Below, one piece after another: positions 13,892 through 34,266 of a DNA stretch of 34,552 bases. The stretch lies in contig JAAXXL010000025.1 in assembly GCA_013334485.1 (NCBI GenBank), positions 1-34,552 of the forward strand. The letters are read 5' to 3'. This stretch comes from Chlorobiaceae bacterium (GTDB lineage Bacteria > Bacteroidota > Chlorobiia > Chlorobiales > Chlorobiaceae). The translations under genes and the position numbers were made by a program. Position 1 is the stretch's first letter. Each line of letters opens with the position of its first letter. The notes below the pieces were generated by a model. It worked only from the letters and a program-made list of their open reading frames with translations, was not told where the DNA came from and made no database searches.

Positions 13892-13995
13892 AGAGTGTAT
13901 TATTTTTGAAGTTAGGGAAAAGGTCTATTTGTTCGGTCAAATCATGAGATTACAGGCAGTCCCGCGTTATTGTCGCGTGTACAGCATTTATATGA

Positions 13996-14137
13996 GGGCA
14001 CCTCTATTTATTGTCGTGAGAAGCCCGAGGATAAGGCGGATGGAGCACAGAAACCGGAGTGTACAGGTAGTACATGAGGATTTCGAGCACCACCCAACGC
14101 AGTAATCGGGTTTCGGAATAAATAAATAGAGGTGCCC
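13996..14137 (+). mobile_element. 142-bp MITE-like element, copy 1
   Basis: The element has 17-bp perfect terminal inverted repeats: GGGCACCTCTATTTATT at 13996-14012 and its reverse complement at 14121-14137. It is flanked by a 4-bp direct repeat ATGA (13992-13995 and 14138-14141), the expected target-site duplication. A second copy in the opposite orientation at 28770-28911 matches at 138 of 142 positions with no length change. It has no coding capacity, so it would depend on a transposase elsewhere. It lies upstream of hup. Confidence 0.9.
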
Positions 14138-14532
14138 ATGATCTGGTTACTTTATGATACCCGAAAAAAGGAGGTCATGAAATCAATCTGATAGTGATAG
14201 GTGGTGAGTGATGAGCGTTATCACCAGAAACGGCTACCAACAGCTAAAATAAACCAAAATATCTCAAATATTTCAAATTCATGCCTCTTGTATACTCTTA
14301 AAACACTCTTAACCGGTGATTCTCCTCTCTTTTGATCTTGATTTTTGTCCTTTTGCGTTATAAATAACAGCGAATGAACTGCGAACTCTCTGTCAGGGCA
14401 ATGTTTTCGTGACAACAGGGCCACTGTTTCTCGAAAGCGCAGGTTGAGAGTGGTTATCCTCCTTTATTGTATCTCTCTTGTTGTGGTATCGCATTTATTT
14501 AATTACCGTTTACTCTCAGCAGGAGGGAACAG

Positions 14533-14586: not shown

Positions 14587-17500
14587 ATGCCGCTTAATCT
14601 TTTTACAAGCAACCGGATGGAAGTTCTGGTTGATGCCCTTGGCAGTACACTTTCTGAACCCGCAACTTCGGTGTTGTCGAGAGAGATGATTGTTGTGCAG
14701 AGCAGGGGCATGCAGCGCTGGCTTTCAATGGAACTGGCCAGCCGTTTTGGCGTATGGGCCAATGGCCACTATCCCTTCCCTAACTCTATGGTCATTGAGC
14801 TTTTTGCGTCGCTGTTCCCATCTCTCTCGAACTCCTCCGCTTTTGTTCCGGAGGTCATGGCATGGAAAATCATGCAGCTTCTGCCGGCACTGCTTGAAAG
14901 TGCCCCATTTGACTCATTGCAGCACTATCTTTCAGACGATTGCGATGGCATCAAGCTTTTCCAGCTTTCGGAAAAAATTGCAGATACCTTTGACCAGTAC
15001 ACCCTTTTCCGTTCGGATCTGCTTGCAGAATGGGAGAGTGGCAAGAGTGATATAGTTGGAGATGAGTGGCAGGCAATTTTGTGGCGCAGGCTTAATTCGG
15101 AAATTCCGGGAGTGCATCGGGGTCAGATGAAAGAGCAGTTCTGTATGAAGCTGAGTCACTCATTACGCAAAGAGTTTGATCTGCCGGAGCGGATCTCGCT
15201 TTTCGGGATTTCGTACCTGCCGAAATATCATCTTGATATCCTTTCATCAGTCGCAAGGTTGACAGAGGTAAACCTTTTTCTTTTAAGCCCGACCTATCAA
15301 TACTGGTCTGATATTCTTCCCAAAAAAAGGGTCATGAGGCTCTCTTTGCCGGAGCGGAAACTCCGGAGTGAAGGTAATCCGTTGCTGGCATCTCTCGGCA
15401 CGACAGGTCGTGATTTTTTTGACATGATTCTTGACCTGAGCGATGGGGCATATATCCAGGAGGAGATGTATGACGATCCGGGACATGATTCTCTGCTCCA
15501 CTCGTTGCAGTCTGATATGCTGCACCTTTCAGGTACCGGTGACGAGGCGGATGAAACAGCAAGGACTCTTGATCCCCTTGACCGATCGGTTCGAATCCAC
15601 TCCTGTCACTCTCCGCTTCGTGAAATTGAGGTGCTTCATGACAACATTCTTGAGATGCTCTCAGGTGACAGCACGCTTACTGCGGGGGATATTGTTGTAA
15701 TGACCCCTGATATCGAGATCTACTCCCCCTACATTGCAAGTGTTTTTTCTGAAGTGGTGAATGGCGCTGCACATCTTCCATTTTCGATTGCGGATCGCAG
15801 GATCGTTAATGAAGGGGAGATCGCTCATGCGGTTCTCAAGGTTTTATCGCTTTATGGAAGCAGGCTTGCTGCATCCGAACTTTTTGATCTGCTCTCCTCT
15901 CCGCCAGTAATGAGGCGTTTCGAAATTGATGATGAAGCTCTCGGCATTATCCGGAACTGGATAGAGAAAACCAGGATTCGATGGGGAATGGATGAGCATG
16001 ATCGGGAGAGGAGGGCGCTGCCCTCCTACAGGGAAAACTCATGGCGGGAAGGGCTGAAGCGTTTGCTGCTCGGTTATGCCATGGCGGATGAAGAGCAGCT
16101 TTTTAATGGTACTCTTCCTTTTGGCGATGTTACGGCTTCGTCTTCCGATACTCTCGGCAGGTTTGCTGAATTTGTCGATGCCGTTGAGGCTTTTGTTCAA
16201 TCGCTTGATCGATTGCGCGATCTTGAGGGGTGGAGGCGCTGGTTTCAGGAGCTTCTTGCTGCTTTTATTTCACCGGATGAGAGTTCTGAACGGGAGTACG
16301 CCTCGATTGCTGCACTAGGTGAAACGATCTCTGATATCTCCGGAGGTGCAGCGTATGATGGTGAGGTGAGTGCGTCAGTCATGCTCTCCTGGTTCAAGGC
16401 CAGGCTTGAGCAGCAGGAGCAGGGTCTCGGATTTATGACTGGCGGGATAACGTTTTGCGCCATGTTACCGATGCGAAGTATTCCATTCAAGGTTGTTGTG
16501 CTTGTCGGTATGAATGATTCGGCCTTTCCCCGTCAGAACCGTCCGCCGGGATTTGATCTCATTGCAACATCGCCCCGTCGCGGAGATCGCTCCCTGCGCA
16601 ATGAGGATCGTTACCTTTTTCTTGAGTCTCTTCTGTCAGCCAGGGAGATATTCTATATCAGCTATGTCGGTCAGAGTATCAGGGACAACAGTGAAAAACC
16701 TCCCTCTGTGCTTGTCAGCGAACTGCTTGATGCGGTACATAGAGGGTTTCGTCTCTCCTCAGGAGCCCCTCTCACGGATCATATAGTGGTTCGCCATCGG
16801 CTGCAAGCTTTCAATCCTGAATATTTTACAGCAGGGTCCGGCCTCTTCAGCTATTCAACAGATAATTACAATGCGCTCATTGAAAAACAGCACCCGCTCA
16901 GCACGTTACGACCCTTCATGAGTGAACAGCTTGAAGAACCCTCAGAGGAGTGTAAATCTGTGCCGCTGGAGCAGCTTCTCAGATTTTATGACAATCCCTC
17001 CCGTTTTTTTCTTGAGCAGCGACTTGCTATCCGGATTGAAGAGTCCGCGCGACCGCTTGAAGATCGTGAGCCTTTTACCCTGGAGGGGCTGGAGCGATAC
17101 CAGCTCCAGCAGGAGCTTCTGAAGATTATACTCCAGGGTGAGGCGCCCGAAGAACAGCTCCCCCTGTTTCGAAGCCGGGGGATGCTGCCGCCTGCCCTGC
17201 ATGGTGAACGGTTGTTTTTTGAGCTTCTTGGGGAGGTGAAGGCTTTTGCCGCACAGGTACAAGAGCAGAGTGGTGGAAGAGAGCGGCTTGCCCCGCTTGA
17301 TGTTGATCTTCAGCTTGGCGGATTTCGACTTACCGGGAGGCTTGAGAGGGTGTGGCCGGAGCATCAACTGCATTATCGATGCGCAAAGAGGCGTCCGAAA
17401 GACACCATCAGGAGTTGGATAGAGCATCTTGTGCTCAATGCGGAAGCCAGAATTGGTTATCCTGCCGGGACTCTTCTGCTCATGGTTGACGGCCTCACGC

Positions 17501-17814
17501 GATTTTCCCCCGTTGATGACGCAGCAGTTCATCTTGAACACCTGCTGAACCATTACTGGCAGGGGCTCTTGACGCCGCTTCGATTTTTCCCCCACTCATC
17601 ACTGGCTTATGCTTCAAAGAGTGAAGAGCCTGAGAAGCTCAAAGCGGCACGCGTGGCGTGGATGGATAACGACTTTACCAGCATACCCGGAGAGGGCTCT
17701 GATCCGGCAATCTTGCGCTGTTTCGGAGTCGGCGATCCCTTTGATGCCGAGTTCCGCGCTCTTTCCGACGAGCTGCTCTCCCCCATGATTCGGGCAGGAG
17801 GCAATGCGGAATGA
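14587..17814 (+). CDS. recC: Exodeoxyribonuclease V gamma subunit RecC
   Basis: RecC is the Chi-recognising scaffold of RecBCD, which processes double-strand breaks for recombination. The 1075-aa length is normal. The N-terminus LFTSNRMEVLVDAL...VQSRGMQRWLSMELASRFGVWAN aligns by eye with E. coli RecC (HSNRLDVL...VQSTGMAQWLQ), which supports the start at 14587. The segment ALLESAPFDSLQHYLSDD...KLFQLSEKIADTFDQY is also RecC-specific. The inactivated helicase fold shows in FKVVVLVGMNDSAFPR (about 635-650). The stop overlaps the recB start by 4 nt (ATGA). Confidence 0.95.
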   Translation: MPLNLFTSNRMEVLVDALGSTLSEPATSVLSREMIVVQSRGMQRWLSMELASRFGVWANGHYPFPNSMVIELFASLFPSLSNSSAFVPEVMAWKIMQLLPALLESAPFDSLQHYLSDDCDGIKLFQLSEKIADTFDQYTLFRSDLLAEWESGKSDIVGDEWQAILWRRLNSEIPGVHRGQMKEQFCMKLSHSLRKEFDLPERISLFGISYLPKYHLDILSSVARLTEVNLFLLSPTYQYWSDILPKKRVMRLSLPERKLRSEGNPLLASLGTTGRDFFDMILDLSDGAYIQEEMYDDPGHDSLLHSLQSDMLHLSGTGDEADETARTLDPLDRSVRIHSCHSPLREIEVLHDNILEMLSGDSTLTAGDIVVMTPDIEIYSPYIASVFSEVVNGAAHLPFSIADRRIVNEGEIAHAVLKVLSLYGSRLAASELFDLLSSPPVMRRFEIDDEALGIIRNWIEKTRIRWGMDEHDRERRALPSYRENSWREGLKRLLLGYAMADEEQLFNGTLPFGDVTASSSDTLGRFAEFVDAVEAFVQSLDRLRDLEGWRRWFQELLAAFISPDESSEREYASIAALGETISDISGGAAYDGEVSASVMLSWFKARLEQQEQGLGFMTGGITFCAMLPMRSIPFKVVVLVGMNDSAFPRQNRPPGFDLIATSPRRGDRSLRNEDRYLFLESLLSAREIFYISYVGQSIRDNSEKPPSVLVSELLDAVHRGFRLSSGAPLTDHIVVRHRLQAFNPEYFTAGSGLFSYSTDNYNALIEKQHPLSTLRPFMSEQLEEPSEECKSVPLEQLLRFYDNPSRFFLEQRLAIRIEESARPLEDREPFTLEGLERYQLQQELLKIILQGEAPEEQLPLFRSRGMLPPALHGERLFFELLGEVKAFAAQVQEQSGGRERLAPLDVDLQLGGFRLTGRLERVWPEHQLHYRCAKRRPKDTIRSWIEHLVLNAEARIGYPAGTLLLMVDGLTRFSPVDDAAVHLEHLLNHYWQGLLTPLRFFPHSSLAYASKSEEPEKLKAARVAWMDNDFTSIPGEGSDPAILRCFGVGDPFDAEFRALSDELLSPMIRAGGNAE

Positions 17815-20800
17815 CACAGAAACTTGAGCATGCATCCATCGCTCTTTCGGGGATAAACCTGATTGAGGCAAGTGCCGGAACCGGGAAAACCTACGCTATC
17901 ACCTCACTCTATCTGCGACTGCTTGTAGAAAAAGAGCTTCTCCCGGACCAGATTCTGGTTGTTACTTATACCGAGGCGGCAACAGAGGAGCTTCGTGCAA
18001 GAATCCGGAGCCGGATACGGGAAGCGATTGATTTTAGTGAAAATCCCCAGGGAGAGGATCCCTTTCTTGATGCATTGATTGGCAATTGCAGTCAGATTGA
18101 GCGTACTAAAAAGAGAGAGCTGCTTGAGGGTGCACTGGGAGCCTTTGATATGGCATCGATTTTTACCATTCACGCATTCTCTCTCCGGGCATTGCAGGAT
18201 AATGCGTTTGAAAGCGGTTCACTTTATGATACCGAACTGGTAACTGATCAAACTGAGCTTGTCGGAGAAATTCTCGATGACTTCTGGCGTCGCCACTTTT
18301 TTATTGATTCGGCACCCCTTCTCGGTTTTGCATTGCAAAACCGGGCTGCTGAACTCTTTTCGACACTTCTTAATGCTCTTCGTTCAGGAAGCGGTGCCCG
18401 GATTATTCCGGAATTCAGTGAGGCGGAAGTTGCAGCTCTTGATGTGGAGTGCGGCGAACGCTACAGGATGCTCAGCACGATCTGGATGAATGATCATGAT
18501 GAGATAAAAGAGCTGCTGAAGTGCGACAAGGGGCTGCGGCGTTCAGAAGAGACCTACCGCGAAGACCTGCTTGGGCCCCTTTTGGAAAAGCTGGAGGCCT
18601 TTGTTTTTGGAGGTAATCCCTATGATCTCTTTTCGGGGTTTGTGCGCTTTACTACCGCAGGTATTGCAAAAGGAACCAAAACAAAAGCATTACCGCCCCA
18701 ACACCTCTTTTTCGAGAGCTGTGAAGCCCTGCAGATCGCTGTAAACCAGCGATTTCTTGCCCTGCAGGCAGAACTGGCAACCTTTTACCGCAAAAGCCTC
18801 ATTGAACGCAAAAGGGCTGCGAATATACGGTTTTTTGACGATCTGCTTGACGATCTCTACCATGCACTTCTCTCTGAGAGCGGTGGAGGGAAGCTTGCAG
18901 GCACTCTTCGTGAAAAGTACAGAGCCGCGCTTATTGATGAATTTCAGGATACCGATCCAGTCCAGTATGAGATATTCCGGAAAATCTATGCCGGTTCAGA
19001 TAATCCCCTTTTTCTTGTCGGTGATCCCAAGCAGGCGATTTACAGCTTTCGCGGGGCTGATATATTTGCCTATATGCGAGCGGCTCGTGAGGTGAGTGAT
19101 GACCGTCAATTTACGCTTACTGAAAACTGGCGCTCCTCTTCGCGGCTTTTGGATGCCTTCAATATGCTGTTTGAAAACGACCGTCATCCATTCTTGTATG
19201 ACGAGATAGCCTACTATCCGCTTACATCCGGCAATCCGGAGCAACAGCAAGGTTGTGGAGAAGTCGAGCCACTCCGGCTTTGGTTGATGGATTCAAGGAT
19301 CGAAAAAAATGAGACACTGACAGTAGATGCAGCTTCCCGTATCGCCTCTGCTTCCGTTGCCGGGGAGATTGCCCGGATTCTCAGGGACGGAGATTCCGTT
19401 GATGGCGTTCGGTCCGTGGAGGCTGGTGATATTGCCATTATTGTGCGTACCCACCGCCAGGGAGCAATGGTTCTTGATGCTTTGAGACAGAGGGGGATTG
19501 CCGGAGTCATGCGGAGCGACAAGAGCATTTTCAGCTCAATGGAGGCTGATGAGGTAAGAGTTCTGCTTTCTGCACTCTGTGACCCTGGCAGTGAATCGAA
19601 GGTGCGTGCGGCGCTGGTAACCGGTATACTTGGACGAACAGGAAATGATATTGCCTGTTTTGCCGATGATGAAGCTGCATGGAGTGAGATGCTCAGTCAG
19701 TTTCGACATTACCATCATCTCTGGCAGGATCGGGGATTTATGGTCATGAGTCGGGAGCTTATGGCTAAAGAGGGTGTGCGGGGTCGTCTTCTCAACGCGC
19801 CAGACTCGTCGGGTGAGCGCTGGCTCACCAATCTGCTTCACTGTTTTGATCTGCTGCATCAGGAGGAACATCAGCGGGGGTCAGGCATGGAAAAGCTTGC
19901 GGCCTGGTTCAGTGAGCGATGTGCTGCCAGCGAGAGCAGGGAGGAGTTTCAGATACGACTCGAAACCGATGAGGCTGCCGTCAAGGTTCTTACGGTTCAT
20001 ATCAGTAAAGGACTTGAGTTTCCTGTTGTCTTTTGTCCTTTTCTCTGGAGCGGGATTAACAGCACTAACAGGGTGGTCATGTTCCACAATGATAATGGGG
20101 ATCTCGTAAAAGATTTTGGTTCCCCTGATATTGACCGTCATCGTTCGATAGCCGGCAAGGAGGCTCTTGGCGAATGCCTCAGGTTGCTCTATGTGGCATT
20201 GACAAGGGCGAAGTACCGTTGCTATCTTTTTTCAGCAAAAATCCGATCAGAGAGCTCGCCTCTCAGCTATCTTCTCTACTCTTCTGATGATCTTCGAAAC
20301 GTTGAAGATCCTCTTGCTCAACTTCAGGCCGGAGCTGCTGCCAATACCGCCCGGACAATGGCTGAACGGTTGCAGCTCCTTGCCGAACGTTCAGGCGGAT
20401 CAATCGGATTCAACTGGATCAATCCCGAGCCTCAGGATTGCAGCAAGTCAGCTTCTTTCGGCAGTTCTTCTCATGGCAAATTTTCCCCGCTCAAACGCTC
20501 CTTTAACGGCATGATTGAGAGTGGGTGGCGGGTTTCAAGTTTCACCTCGTTTTGTCGCCATGAGTTCAGTGCCTCTGAGCTGCCGGATCGCGATGAGCAA
20601 CCGTTGACAGCGCCGCAGGCCGTGGTTATTAATCCGGAAAAGAACCTTTTTGCTTTCCCCCGCGGGGCCCAGGCAGGTATTTTCATGCATGGTATTTTTG
20701 AAAAGCTCAATTTCGCATCTCCCTCTATCCTGCAGATCCGGGAACTTGTTACAAAGGGACTTGATCGTTATGGTTATGATCATGAGTGGGAACCCTCTGT

Positions 20801-21389
20801 TACAAAGATGGTTCAACAGGTGCTTGGAGTGCCGCTCTCTTCGCCTAATGGAACCTTTACTCTCGGTGCCCTCAGACGCGGGAGCTGGGTTACCGAAATG
20901 GAGTTTTTCTTTCCTCTCAGCTTTATCACTCCCGCTATTCTTGGCGAGGTTCTCTCTCGATACGGCGCTCTCGACGAGGGGATTGATCTTGCCGCACTTG
21001 CCTCTAAGTTGCAGTTCAGGCCTGTCAGGGGTATGATGATGGGCTTTATGGATATGGTTTTTGTTGCAGACGGGCGGTACTATCTGCTCGACTGGAAATC
21101 AAATTTTCTGGGAAGCAGTTATGAAGATTACAACAAAGAGGCCATGAAAGAGGCTATGGAAACGAATCTTTATGCGTTGCAGTATCTTCTCTATACCGTT
21201 GCTCTTGACCGCTATCTTTCACTCCGGGTTAAAAACTACAGCTACGGTGAGCATTTTGGCGGCGTTATCTATGTTTTTTTACGCGGAGTGCACGGTGAGT
21301 ATGGGGAAACAAAAGGTTTCTTCCGTGACCGGCCACAGGAAGAGCTGATAAAAGAGTTGACCAATATTCTGATTCAACAGGGAGGGTAG
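17811..21389 (+). CDS. recB: Exodeoxyribonuclease V beta subunit RecB
   Basis: RecB is the 3'-5' helicase and sole nuclease of RecBCD. The 1192-aa product has Walker A ASAGTGKT (20-27), VVTYTEAATEELRARIRSRI (motif Ia), DEFQDTDPVQYEIF (motif II), VGDPKQAIYSFRGADIFAY (motif III), HISKGLEFPVVFCP (motif V) and LLYVALTRAKYRC (motif VI). The C-terminal nuclease is intact: His in FMHGIFEKL, Asp1081 in GFMDMVF and Asp1094-Lys1096 in LLDWKSN. Overlap with recC by 4 nt and a 4-nt gap before recD indicate one operon with coupled translation. Confidence 0.96.
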   Translation: MTQKLEHASIALSGINLIEASAGTGKTYAITSLYLRLLVEKELLPDQILVVTYTEAATEELRARIRSRIREAIDFSENPQGEDPFLDALIGNCSQIERTKKRELLEGALGAFDMASIFTIHAFSLRALQDNAFESGSLYDTELVTDQTELVGEILDDFWRRHFFIDSAPLLGFALQNRAAELFSTLLNALRSGSGARIIPEFSEAEVAALDVECGERYRMLSTIWMNDHDEIKELLKCDKGLRRSEETYREDLLGPLLEKLEAFVFGGNPYDLFSGFVRFTTAGIAKGTKTKALPPQHLFFESCEALQIAVNQRFLALQAELATFYRKSLIERKRAANIRFFDDLLDDLYHALLSESGGGKLAGTLREKYRAALIDEFQDTDPVQYEIFRKIYAGSDNPLFLVGDPKQAIYSFRGADIFAYMRAAREVSDDRQFTLTENWRSSSRLLDAFNMLFENDRHPFLYDEIAYYPLTSGNPEQQQGCGEVEPLRLWLMDSRIEKNETLTVDAASRIASASVAGEIARILRDGDSVDGVRSVEAGDIAIIVRTHRQGAMVLDALRQRGIAGVMRSDKSIFSSMEADEVRVLLSALCDPGSESKVRAALVTGILGRTGNDIACFADDEAAWSEMLSQFRHYHHLWQDRGFMVMSRELMAKEGVRGRLLNAPDSSGERWLTNLLHCFDLLHQEEHQRGSGMEKLAAWFSERCAASESREEFQIRLETDEAAVKVLTVHISKGLEFPVVFCPFLWSGINSTNRVVMFHNDNGDLVKDFGSPDIDRHRSIAGKEALGECLRLLYVALTRAKYRCYLFSAKIRSESSPLSYLLYSSDDLRNVEDPLAQLQAGAAANTARTMAERLQLLAERSGGSIGFNWINPEPQDCSKSASFGSSSHGKFSPLKRSFNGMIESGWRVSSFTSFCRHEFSASELPDRDEQPLTAPQAVVINPEKNLFAFPRGAQAGIFMHGIFEKLNFASPSILQIRELVTKGLDRYGYDHEWEPSVTKMVQQVLGVPLSSPNGTFTLGALRRGSWVTEMEFFFPLSFITPAILGEVLSRYGALDEGIDLAALASKLQFRPVRGMMMGFMDMVFVADGRYYLLDWKSNFLGSSYEDYNKEAMKEAMETNLYALQYLLYTVALDRYLSLRVKNYSYGEHFGGVIYVFLRGVHGEYGETKGFFRDRPQEELIKELTNILIQQGG

Positions 21390-21393
21390 TCGG

Positions 21394-23145
21394 GTGAGTA
21401 TCGAATTTCATGAACGGTTGATCGACCGCCATTTTGCAGCATTTATCACTGGTTCGTCCGGAAACGAGAGAGATCTTTTCTCACTTCTCGTCTCCATGCT
21501 CAGCAGCTCCGTCGGTGATGGCAATACCTGTCTGAATCTTCGAGAAGTTGCTGAAGAGCGAGTCATTGTTGATGGAACGGTTTTTGATTTTCCGGCCATT
21601 GACGAGCTGAGAGGGCTGGTCGTGCAATCGTCGGCGGCAGGTGTTCCAGGGCAGTTCAGGCCTCTGGTACTGGATGATGCCGGGCGGCTCTATCTCTACC
21701 GCTACTGGCGTTATGAGCATGATCTTGCCTCACTGCTACTTGAGAAAGCGCGAGGAGAGGATTGCAGGGTTGAAGATAAACTGCCGGATGACACATTGGT
21801 CAGAATGTTCCCGGAGAGTTCTGAGGGTGATAGTTCCCGTCAGAAAGAGGCTGCCGCTGTTGCTCTCTGCAGGCAGTTGTGTGTTATTTCCGGAGGTCCA
21901 GGAACAGGCAAGACCTCGACAGTTGTCCGGATTCTCGCACTGTTGCTCGAGCAGCATAACGGGCTGAAGCTGAACATTGCTATGGCTGCGCCGACAGGTA
22001 AAGCGGCAGCGCGTCTTAAAGCTTCAGTGTCTGCTCTTCGCCAGGTTCTTGATTGTTCAGATAACGTCAGAAACGCTATACCTGACAACGTTGTGACCAT
22101 TCATCGTCTTCTCGGTACGCTTTCAGGAACGGATCGTTTCCGGCACTCAGCATTGAATCCGCTTGCATTTGATATTGTCGTTGTTGATGAGGCCTCGATG
22201 ATTGCCCTGCCGCTTATGACCGCTCTGCTTAGAGCGCTGAAGCCCGGGGCTCGCCTTATACTGCTTGGAGACCGCGATCAGCTTGCTTCGGTAGAGGCCG
22301 GAGCTGTACTTGGCGATATCTGCCGGGCCGGAGAGCTGTTCCCGGATTCCCCGCTCGGCCAATCAATGGTTATGCTTGAAAAAAATTTCCGTTTTAAAGA
22401 GAAGAGCGGCATTGGTGAACTGAGCAGCCGGGTCAATGCCGGAAGAGGGGTAGATGCTTTACAGCTCCTGACAAACAGTGCTCAGGAGAGGCTCACCTGG
22501 CAGTCTGTTTCATCCCGTGAAGAGCTGAGGCGGTTACTTCCCGAAAGCGTTGTTGAGGGATACAGCTGCTCATTTAAAGCCGCTACACCCGGAGAAGCTC
22601 TTGAGCAGTTTGACCGGTTCAGGATACTCTGTGCGCTTCGTGATGGGCCGTTCGGAGTAAGTGGCATCAATGGCTATGTTGAAAGCACTCTTCGCAGGGC
22701 GAATCTGATTTCCGGCATAGAGGCCAATTATCGCTGCCGCCCGATTCTTGTTACGGCCAATGATCATACACTTCAGTTATTCAACGGTGATACCGGAATT
22801 CTTTTTCCCGATCCTGATTATGGCGGTGAACTCAGGGCGTTCTTTCCCTCATCTGACGGCGGTATCCGCAGCCTGGCTCCGATAAGAGTTCCTCATCATG
22901 AGAGTGCATTTGCCATGACTGTTCACAAAAGCCAGGGTTCGGAGTTTGAGCGTATTCTGTTGATTCTTCCTCCGACAGAGTCAGATATTCTGACAAGAGC
23001 GCTGCTCTATACAGCCATAACAAGGGCTAAGGCAAGTGTCGAGATCTGGGGAGATAAAGAGGTGTTTGTGAAGGCGGTCAGTCGAAAGAGTGAGCGGCAT
23101 TCCGGACTTGCCGATGCTCTGCTGTCGGCTGTAGAGGTGTGTTGA
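21394..23145 (+). CDS. recD: Exodeoxyribonuclease V alpha subunit RecD
   Basis: RecD is the 5'-3' helicase of RecBCD. The 583-aa product has an N-terminal domain (1-150), Walker A GGPGTGKT (167-174), APTGKAAARLKASV, DEAS (265-268), LLGDRDQLASVEAGAVLGDI and the C-terminal AMTVHKSQGSEFERILLILP and YTAITRAK motifs. The start is GTG at 21394, supported by a GGGAGGG ribosome-binding site overlapping the recB end. Length is typical of RecD1. There is no RecD2-type N-terminal extension, consistent with a partner of RecBC. No terminator hairpin is obvious before the next gene. Confidence 0.95.
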   Translation: MSIEFHERLIDRHFAAFITGSSGNERDLFSLLVSMLSSSVGDGNTCLNLREVAEERVIVDGTVFDFPAIDELRGLVVQSSAAGVPGQFRPLVLDDAGRLYLYRYWRYEHDLASLLLEKARGEDCRVEDKLPDDTLVRMFPESSEGDSSRQKEAAAVALCRQLCVISGGPGTGKTSTVVRILALLLEQHNGLKLNIAMAAPTGKAAARLKASVSALRQVLDCSDNVRNAIPDNVVTIHRLLGTLSGTDRFRHSALNPLAFDIVVVDEASMIALPLMTALLRALKPGARLILLGDRDQLASVEAGAVLGDICRAGELFPDSPLGQSMVMLEKNFRFKEKSGIGELSSRVNAGRGVDALQLLTNSAQERLTWQSVSSREELRRLLPESVVEGYSCSFKAATPGEALEQFDRFRILCALRDGPFGVSGINGYVESTLRRANLISGIEANYRCRPILVTANDHTLQLFNGDTGILFPDPDYGGELRAFFPSSDGGIRSLAPIRVPHHESAFAMTVHKSQGSEFERILLILPPTESDILTRALLYTAITRAKASVEIWGDKEVFVKAVSRKSERHSGLADALLSAVEVC

Positions 23146-27777: not shown

Positions 27778-28770
27778 GTGAATAACAAAATTCTTGTAAC
27801 CGGAGCGACAGGTTTTATTGGATCCCGTCTTGTAATCAAGCTTGCTGCTTCATCGGACGAAATCTTTGTTCTTGTCAGAAAGTCATCTGACTTGACTTCA
27901 CTCTCTGATGTATTGGATCGCATTCATCTGCTCTATGGTGATATAACCGATGGTGAGTCGATTAATGCTGCAATGAAGGGCATTGACTATGTCTATCATA
28001 CCGCAGGTCTTACCTATATGGGCGATAAAAAAAATGCCCTGCTTTATAAAATCAATGTTGATGGAACCAAAAATATCTTGCGTGCTGCAGCCGCAGAGGG
28101 TGTGAAAAGAGTTATTCATGTCAGCTCCATTACGGCTGTAGGTATTGCTTTTGACAAAAAGCCGGTCAATGAATCTGTTGTCTGGAATTTTGAAACGATC
28201 AGCCTTGAGTATGCAAGAACCAAACATATAGCAGAGCTTGAGGTCGCAAATGCCGTTAAAAAAGGACTTGACTGTGTGATTGTCAATCCGGCATTTGTGT
28301 TCGGTGCGGGTGATATCAATTTTAATGCCGGTCGTATAATCAAGGATGTCTATAACCGGAAGCTGCCCTTTTACCCTCTTGGCGGCATCTGCATCGTCGA
28401 TGTTGAAATTGTGGCGGAGGCCATCATATCGGCCATGGAAAAAGGGAGAACAGGTGAGCGCTACATTATCGGCGGCGAGAACGTCTCCTACAAAAAGCTT
28501 GCTGATACGATTTCACGGATTACCGGAGCGCCGAAAGTTCGTTTACCTATGCCATTCTGGATGGCAAAGATACTGAAGTTGATTCTGGATCTTTACAAGA
28601 ACAAAAACAGCATATCAAAGTTGTTCAACCTCTCCATGTTCAGGGTTGCATCCGAGTTTCTCTACTTTGATTCATCCAAGGCATCACGGGAGTTAAACAT
28701 GCGATACGAACCGCATGAACACAGTATTCGCAGCGCCTATGAGTGGTATCGTGACAGGAACCTTCTTTAG
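27778..28770 (+). CDS. Extended SDR, HpnA/dihydroflavonol-reductase-like NAD(P)-dependent epimerase or reductase
   Basis: The 330-aa product has Rossmann motif VTGATGFIGSRL (5-16), LLYGDITD, VYHTAG and INVDGTKNIL, catalytic Tyr-Lys in YARTKH, then VIVNPAFVFGAGD and GERYIIGGENVSYKKL. This order fits hopanoid-associated epimerase HpnA and dihydroflavonol-reductase-like extended SDRs, which act on lipid-linked or aglycone substrates. The exact substrate is unknown. The start is GTG. The gene ends in TAG, whose G is also the first base of the second MITE copy; before insertion the stop would have been the same TAG. The MITE separates it from the sugar operon downstream. Confidence 0.85.
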   Translation: MNNKILVTGATGFIGSRLVIKLAASSDEIFVLVRKSSDLTSLSDVLDRIHLLYGDITDGESINAAMKGIDYVYHTAGLTYMGDKKNALLYKINVDGTKNILRAAAAEGVKRVIHVSSITAVGIAFDKKPVNESVVWNFETISLEYARTKHIAELEVANAVKKGLDCVIVNPAFVFGAGDINFNAGRIIKDVYNRKLPFYPLGGICIVDVEIVAEAIISAMEKGRTGERYIIGGENVSYKKLADTISRITGAPKVRLPMPFWMAKILKLILDLYKNKNSISKLFNLSMFRVASEFLYFDSSKASRELNMRYEPHEHSIRSAYEWYRDRNLL

Positions 28771-28911
28771 GGCACCTCTATTTATTTGTTCCGAAACCCG
28801 ATTACTGCGTTGGGTGGTGCTCGAAATCCTCATGTACTACGTGTACACTCCGGTTTCTGTGCTCCATCCGCCTTGTCCTCGGGCTTCTCACGACAATAAA
28901 TAGAGGCGCCC
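28770..28911 (-). mobile_element. 142-bp MITE-like element, copy 2
   Basis: This is the reverse complement of the element at 13996-14137, with four substitutions in 142 bp. Terminal repeats match at 16 of 17 positions (GGCGCC replaces GGCACC at one end). The 4-bp flanks TTTA (28766-28769 and 28912-28915) form a target duplication different from copy 1, so the two insertions are independent. The left end falls inside the stop codon of the extended SDR, and the right end lies 80 nt before the sugar operon. Confidence 0.9.
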
Positions 28912-28972
28912 TTTAGTTGAGGCTGATTTGCTGTCTACCCGATGATTGAATAAATATTTAACAATACATTAC

Positions 28973-34193: not shown

Positions 34194-34266
34194 GGAGGCG
34201 AAGAGCGGATTCGAACCGCTGTACAAGGTTTTGCAGACCTCTGCCTAACCACTCGGCCACTTCGCC
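34193..34266 (-). tRNA. trnC: tRNA-Cys, anticodon GCA, CCA encoded
   Basis: Read on the minus strand, the acceptor stem is GGCGAAG/CTTCGCC, the D-stem GCC/GGC, the anticodon stem GAGGT/ACCTT (one G-U pair) around CTGCAAA with anticodon GCA, and the T-arm AGCGG-TTCGAAT-CCGCT. The discriminator base is U73, an identity element for cysteinyl-tRNA synthetase. CCA is encoded (34193-34195). It converges on the sugar operon. Confidence 0.96.

Follow-up and report, generated by a model that had tools for sequence, protein, structure and literature searches.

The window analyzed here, a 34,552-nt contig from the draft genome of a Chlorobiaceae bacterium (G000; 2.59 Mb in 130 contigs, 95.9% complete), contains two copies of a 142-bp element. 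Copy 1 adjoins a row of genes encoding the RecC, RecB, and RecD subunits (14587 to 23145, assigned with Pfam), and an epimerase-like gene (27778 to 28770) takes the last base of its stop codon from the first base of copy 2. A tRNA gene on the minus strand (34196 to 34266) is the sole Rfam match in the window above its gathering score. The features of the two copies are the following:

13996..14137, plus strand: MITE copy 1, 142 bp, sequence read directly
28770..28911, minus strand: MITE copy 2, inverted, 142 bp, sequence read directly
13992..13995, no strand: target duplication ATGA, left of copy 1
14138..14141, no strand: target duplication ATGA, right of copy 1
28766..28769, no strand: target duplication TTTA, left of copy 2
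28912..28915, no strand: target duplication TTTA, right of copy 2
13996..14012, plus strand: left terminal inverted repeat of copy 1, equal to the left end of a Chlorobiaceae IS5-family insertion sequence (IS)
14121..14137, minus strand: right terminal inverted repeat of copy 1
14037..14096, plus strand: conserved interior core, MITE positions 42 to 101, common to enterobacterial intergenic repeats
14029..14075, minus strand: subthreshold match to Rfam sX9 (RF02228), 33.6 bits against a gathering score of 44

A sequence-only reading of the window had described two copies of a MITE at these positions, differing at four bases, with 4-bp duplications and perfect or near-perfect terminal repeats, and direct reading bore out each of these points. 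The copies differ at four bases (97% identity over 143 nt in a repeat search of the window), and both the ATGA and the TTTA duplications are exact in the flanks. In copy 1 the 17-bp terminal inverted repeats, GGGCACCTCTATTTATT, match perfectly, while copy 2 has one mismatch, with GGGCGCC at one end. Like a MITE, the element is short and noncoding and has terminal inverted repeats, and this identification is further supported by the 4-bp duplications, by many additional copies in the genome, and by a site that is unoccupied in relatives.

At least 40 copies of the element are present in G000 (109 candidates in a first look). TIR-like ends with no more than three mismatches occur 164 times (93 + 71), compared to 2 + 0 for a reversed-pattern control. 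Exact 4-bp duplications flank 16 of the 19 intact copies whose two ends were both scored by script, compared to 2 of 114 when the same comparison is made at shifted positions, and five further copies that were read by eye outside the script scoring also have exact duplications. The duplications are AT-rich (ATAA, TTAT, TTTA, TAAA, TAAT, ATTA, ATGA, and TACA). The element is found in 18 of the 61 genomes searched, the window's own included, and all of the carriers belong to one genus. The outer 34 bp of the element had no match in plasmids.

The two sites in the window were compared with those of G007 and G015, the two relatives whose copies of the element are closest. In neither is site 1 occupied; the MITE is absent between the same genes, with flanks too diverged to display the exact empty target. 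Copy 2 sits exactly at a break in synteny: in G007 and G015, the sequences to its left and right belong to separate contigs. A chimeric contig at this site is made less likely by the matching TTTA duplication, although matches between AT-rich tetramers are not rare.

The 17-bp end of the MITE recurs as the left end of an IS5-family IS of ∼1.31 kb in sister Chlorobiaceae (loci L221, L222, L191/L252, L240, L241, L224, and L232; the end is the same or nearly the same). It is flanked by target duplications of the same AT-rich 4-bp kind (TCAA, TTAA, ATAA, and TAAA). Two of its transposases were scanned against the NCBIfam model IS5_4 (NF033581) and scored 270 and 285.5 bits, above the cutoff of 140, which places them in the IS5 family. 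The MITE and the IS are alike at 17 of 17 bases at the left end and share no similarity above noise elsewhere; the IS encodes a transposase of ∼350 to 380 amino acids, and its interior is unrelated. Since the similarity is confined to the ends, the element is a type II MITE, a class defined as shorter than 500 bp, with inverted ends, target duplications, and similarity to an autonomous IS only at the ends (review PMC10969869). The 142-bp element resembles this class in each of these properties and differs from it in having an interior that is conserved between phyla and ends that vary.

The sequence-only reading had also predicted a partner transposase in the same genome, and here the prediction held only for the sister species. 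The best match in G000 is a fossil 60-residue piece of the transposase C terminus, 75% identical, with a TIR-like end next to it at C46:56442; a second, weaker match, within a 389-amino-acid frame on C11, has no matching end nearby. Neither the 95.9% complete draft of G000 nor G007 and G015, both of which are rich in copies, yielded an intact partner IS, and an intact IS may be present in the organism while absent from the draft assembly. L031, the sole PF01609 transposase in G000, was considered as the partner and rejected, its ends being unrelated. Single TIRs that were retrieved from G000 in the search for the IS were mostly variant copies of the MITE, and the two that were inspected closely are solo ends adjoining genes. 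One locus (L199 564 to 606; G000:C39:9663-9705) carries a 43-bp mini-palindrome in which two TIRs (GGTCACCTCTATTTATT) surround 9 bp, with AAAA on both sides.

The sequence-only reading of the element itself stands, but a second property was not visible to it, namely, an interior module that is conserved across phyla. In a blastn search made without any pattern, MITE positions 42 to 101 matched intergenic repeats of Escherichia coli, Salmonella, Klebsiella, and Aeromonas at 82 to 90% identity. The core is found in 5,375 of 5,426 E. coli genomes, at a median of two places per genome. In E. coli, Salmonella, and Klebsiella, the repeat shares with the MITE a core that is 82 to 90% identical over 40 to 60 bp, a length of ∼150 bp, and inverted ends, but these ends are GAGCCTATCCCAGTAGGC-like rather than GGGCACCTCTATTTATT. 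We take this repeat to be possibly the same as the RSA/BEE95 repeats. A literature search for the core sequence returned no relevant report.

When one genome of each species was scanned with a pattern, at least 114 related loci were identified in Beta- and Gammaproteobacteria, Chlorobiota, and one metagenome-assembled genome labeled Pedobacter. Bases that the pattern itself fixes are not evidence of conservation; the enteric matches are, and so are positions that covary outside it. Most of these elements are ∼140 to 150 bp long, with interiors that are alike and terminal repeats that vary from one taxon to another; examples are AGAGCGGCTAACAAAAC in Xanthomonas, GAACCTGTTCACGATC in Pseudogulbenkiania, and GGGCACTTCCAGAAATTC in Rhodoferax. 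The end of the Rudaea element (L160), GGGCACTTCGAAAAACC, differs by a single base from the end that IS5_4 elements have in Pseudogulbenkiania and Chitinimonas. For most proteobacterial versions, a cognate transposase was not found, and the IS5_4 copies in several of these genomes had other ends. Long TIR pairs in Xanthomonas hortorum (L212 and L213) resembled autonomous partners but are MITE-like pieces of 450 bp. This 450-bp repeat, present at L212, L213, and L214, and the 142-bp element have AGAGCGGCTAACAAA ends in common; IS5 and IS110 elements appear to be nested in two of its copies, and the IS110 in L213 was named from its translation. In Curvibacter (L090, 2737 to 3154), two core elements lie in tandem, 274 bp apart.

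The interior forms a long, imperfect hairpin whose bulges are constant. Among 47 diverse sequences, 94.3% of cells hold standard pairs, compared to at most 36% for slid structures, and 23 of the 36 pairs display two-sided changes. These changes number 289 (at most 89 for slid structures), and the covariation score is 0.476 (at most 0.091). One inner pair, at columns 60 and 94, is GC in 23 sequences, AU in 17, and CG in 7. Covariation in a palindrome can arise in part from repair at the DNA level or from a need for matching ends. Indications of the strand are divided: folds of the whole element favor the plus strand (50 of 82), as do consensus energy and wobble pairs, while folds of the core alone favor the minus strand (67 of 82), the strand of the reported sX9 transcript.

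The left half of the element, read on the minus strand, is homologous to sX9, with the match reaching 102 bits in Xanthomonas dyei. The Rfam model covers only 76 nt, and the window copy scores below its gathering threshold. This relationship raises the question of whether the element is a conserved functional RNA gene, like the sX9 small RNA (sRNA), that merely resembles a MITE. sX9 is among the 20 most prevalent annotated sRNA families in bacteria (PMC9029176) and is reported to be upregulated under copper in Xanthomonas (PMC10924375), and the strong covariation is also what such a gene would display. Exact target duplications at differing sites refute an sRNA gene as the sole explanation, and the unoccupied site 1, the identity of the terminal repeats to an IS end, and the low sX9 score of the Chlorobium copy weigh against it as well; we regard it as unlikely. 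In the literature examined, sX9 is described as an sRNA, and nothing was found that places it within a transposable element. Our results suggest that this widely annotated sRNA family belongs to a transposable element, which would bear on the annotation of many genomes.

Two other origins concern the way in which the element moves. An internal-deletion derivative of a resident IS, that is, a type I MITE with an interior of leftover IS sequence, would also have ends identical to the left end of the IS, but similarity to the IS copies found does not extend past the 17-bp end, and the interior is instead common to other repeats across phyla, making this origin very improbable. The hairpin form, GTAG-like motifs, and intergenic position recall REP-like palindromes moved by a Y1 (RAYT) transposase. 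Y1 transposition makes neither 4-bp target duplications nor terminal repeats of the IS5 type, and both are present here, so that there is scarcely any likelihood of this mechanism.

The element has the ends, duplications, copy number, and unoccupied site described above, and sister species carry an IS that agrees with it in its ends and its duplications. We infer from these observations that an IS5 transposase moves the MITE. A type II MITE mobilized in trans by an IS5-family transposase and carrying an old structured module is, in our judgment, highly probable. In this mechanism, a DDE transposase of the IS5_4 group would recognize the GGGCACCTCTATTTATT ends, mobilize the gene-less 142-bp element in trans, and duplicate 4 bp of an AT-rich target upon insertion. 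The interior would be an old, separately conserved module carried between different terminal repeats in different lineages.

MITEs are normally recognized by ends that fit a transposase, and their interior is free to drift. As a type II MITE of an IS5-family element, the 142-bp element is ordinary in kind; it is unusual in its structured interior conserved across phyla. The usual pattern is reversed, with the structured interior kept from Chlorobium to E. coli and the ends differing. Possibly, though we would not call it probable, a functional structured module, RNA or DNA, makes up the interior, spreading between phyla and exchanging its ends to match the resident transposase. If this exchange of ends is real, sX9 and the enteric repeat would be branches of one ancient superfamily. 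The interior has most likely been kept because its folded form matters for persistence, a claim that we make less firmly than those above. The folded interior, as a transcribed RNA or an extruded DNA hairpin, could aid the persistence of the element, for example, by making insertions at the 3′ ends of genes tolerable.

At the pattern loci, genes reading toward the right end of the element frequently end no more than a few bases from it (median distance of −1, with genes called by a simple open reading frame rule). Both a target preference for stop-codon-like sequence and selection against insertions within genes would produce this pattern. Solo MITE ends also lie immediately past stop codons at L209 (2480 to 2520) and L196 (1267), where they may serve as transcription terminators.
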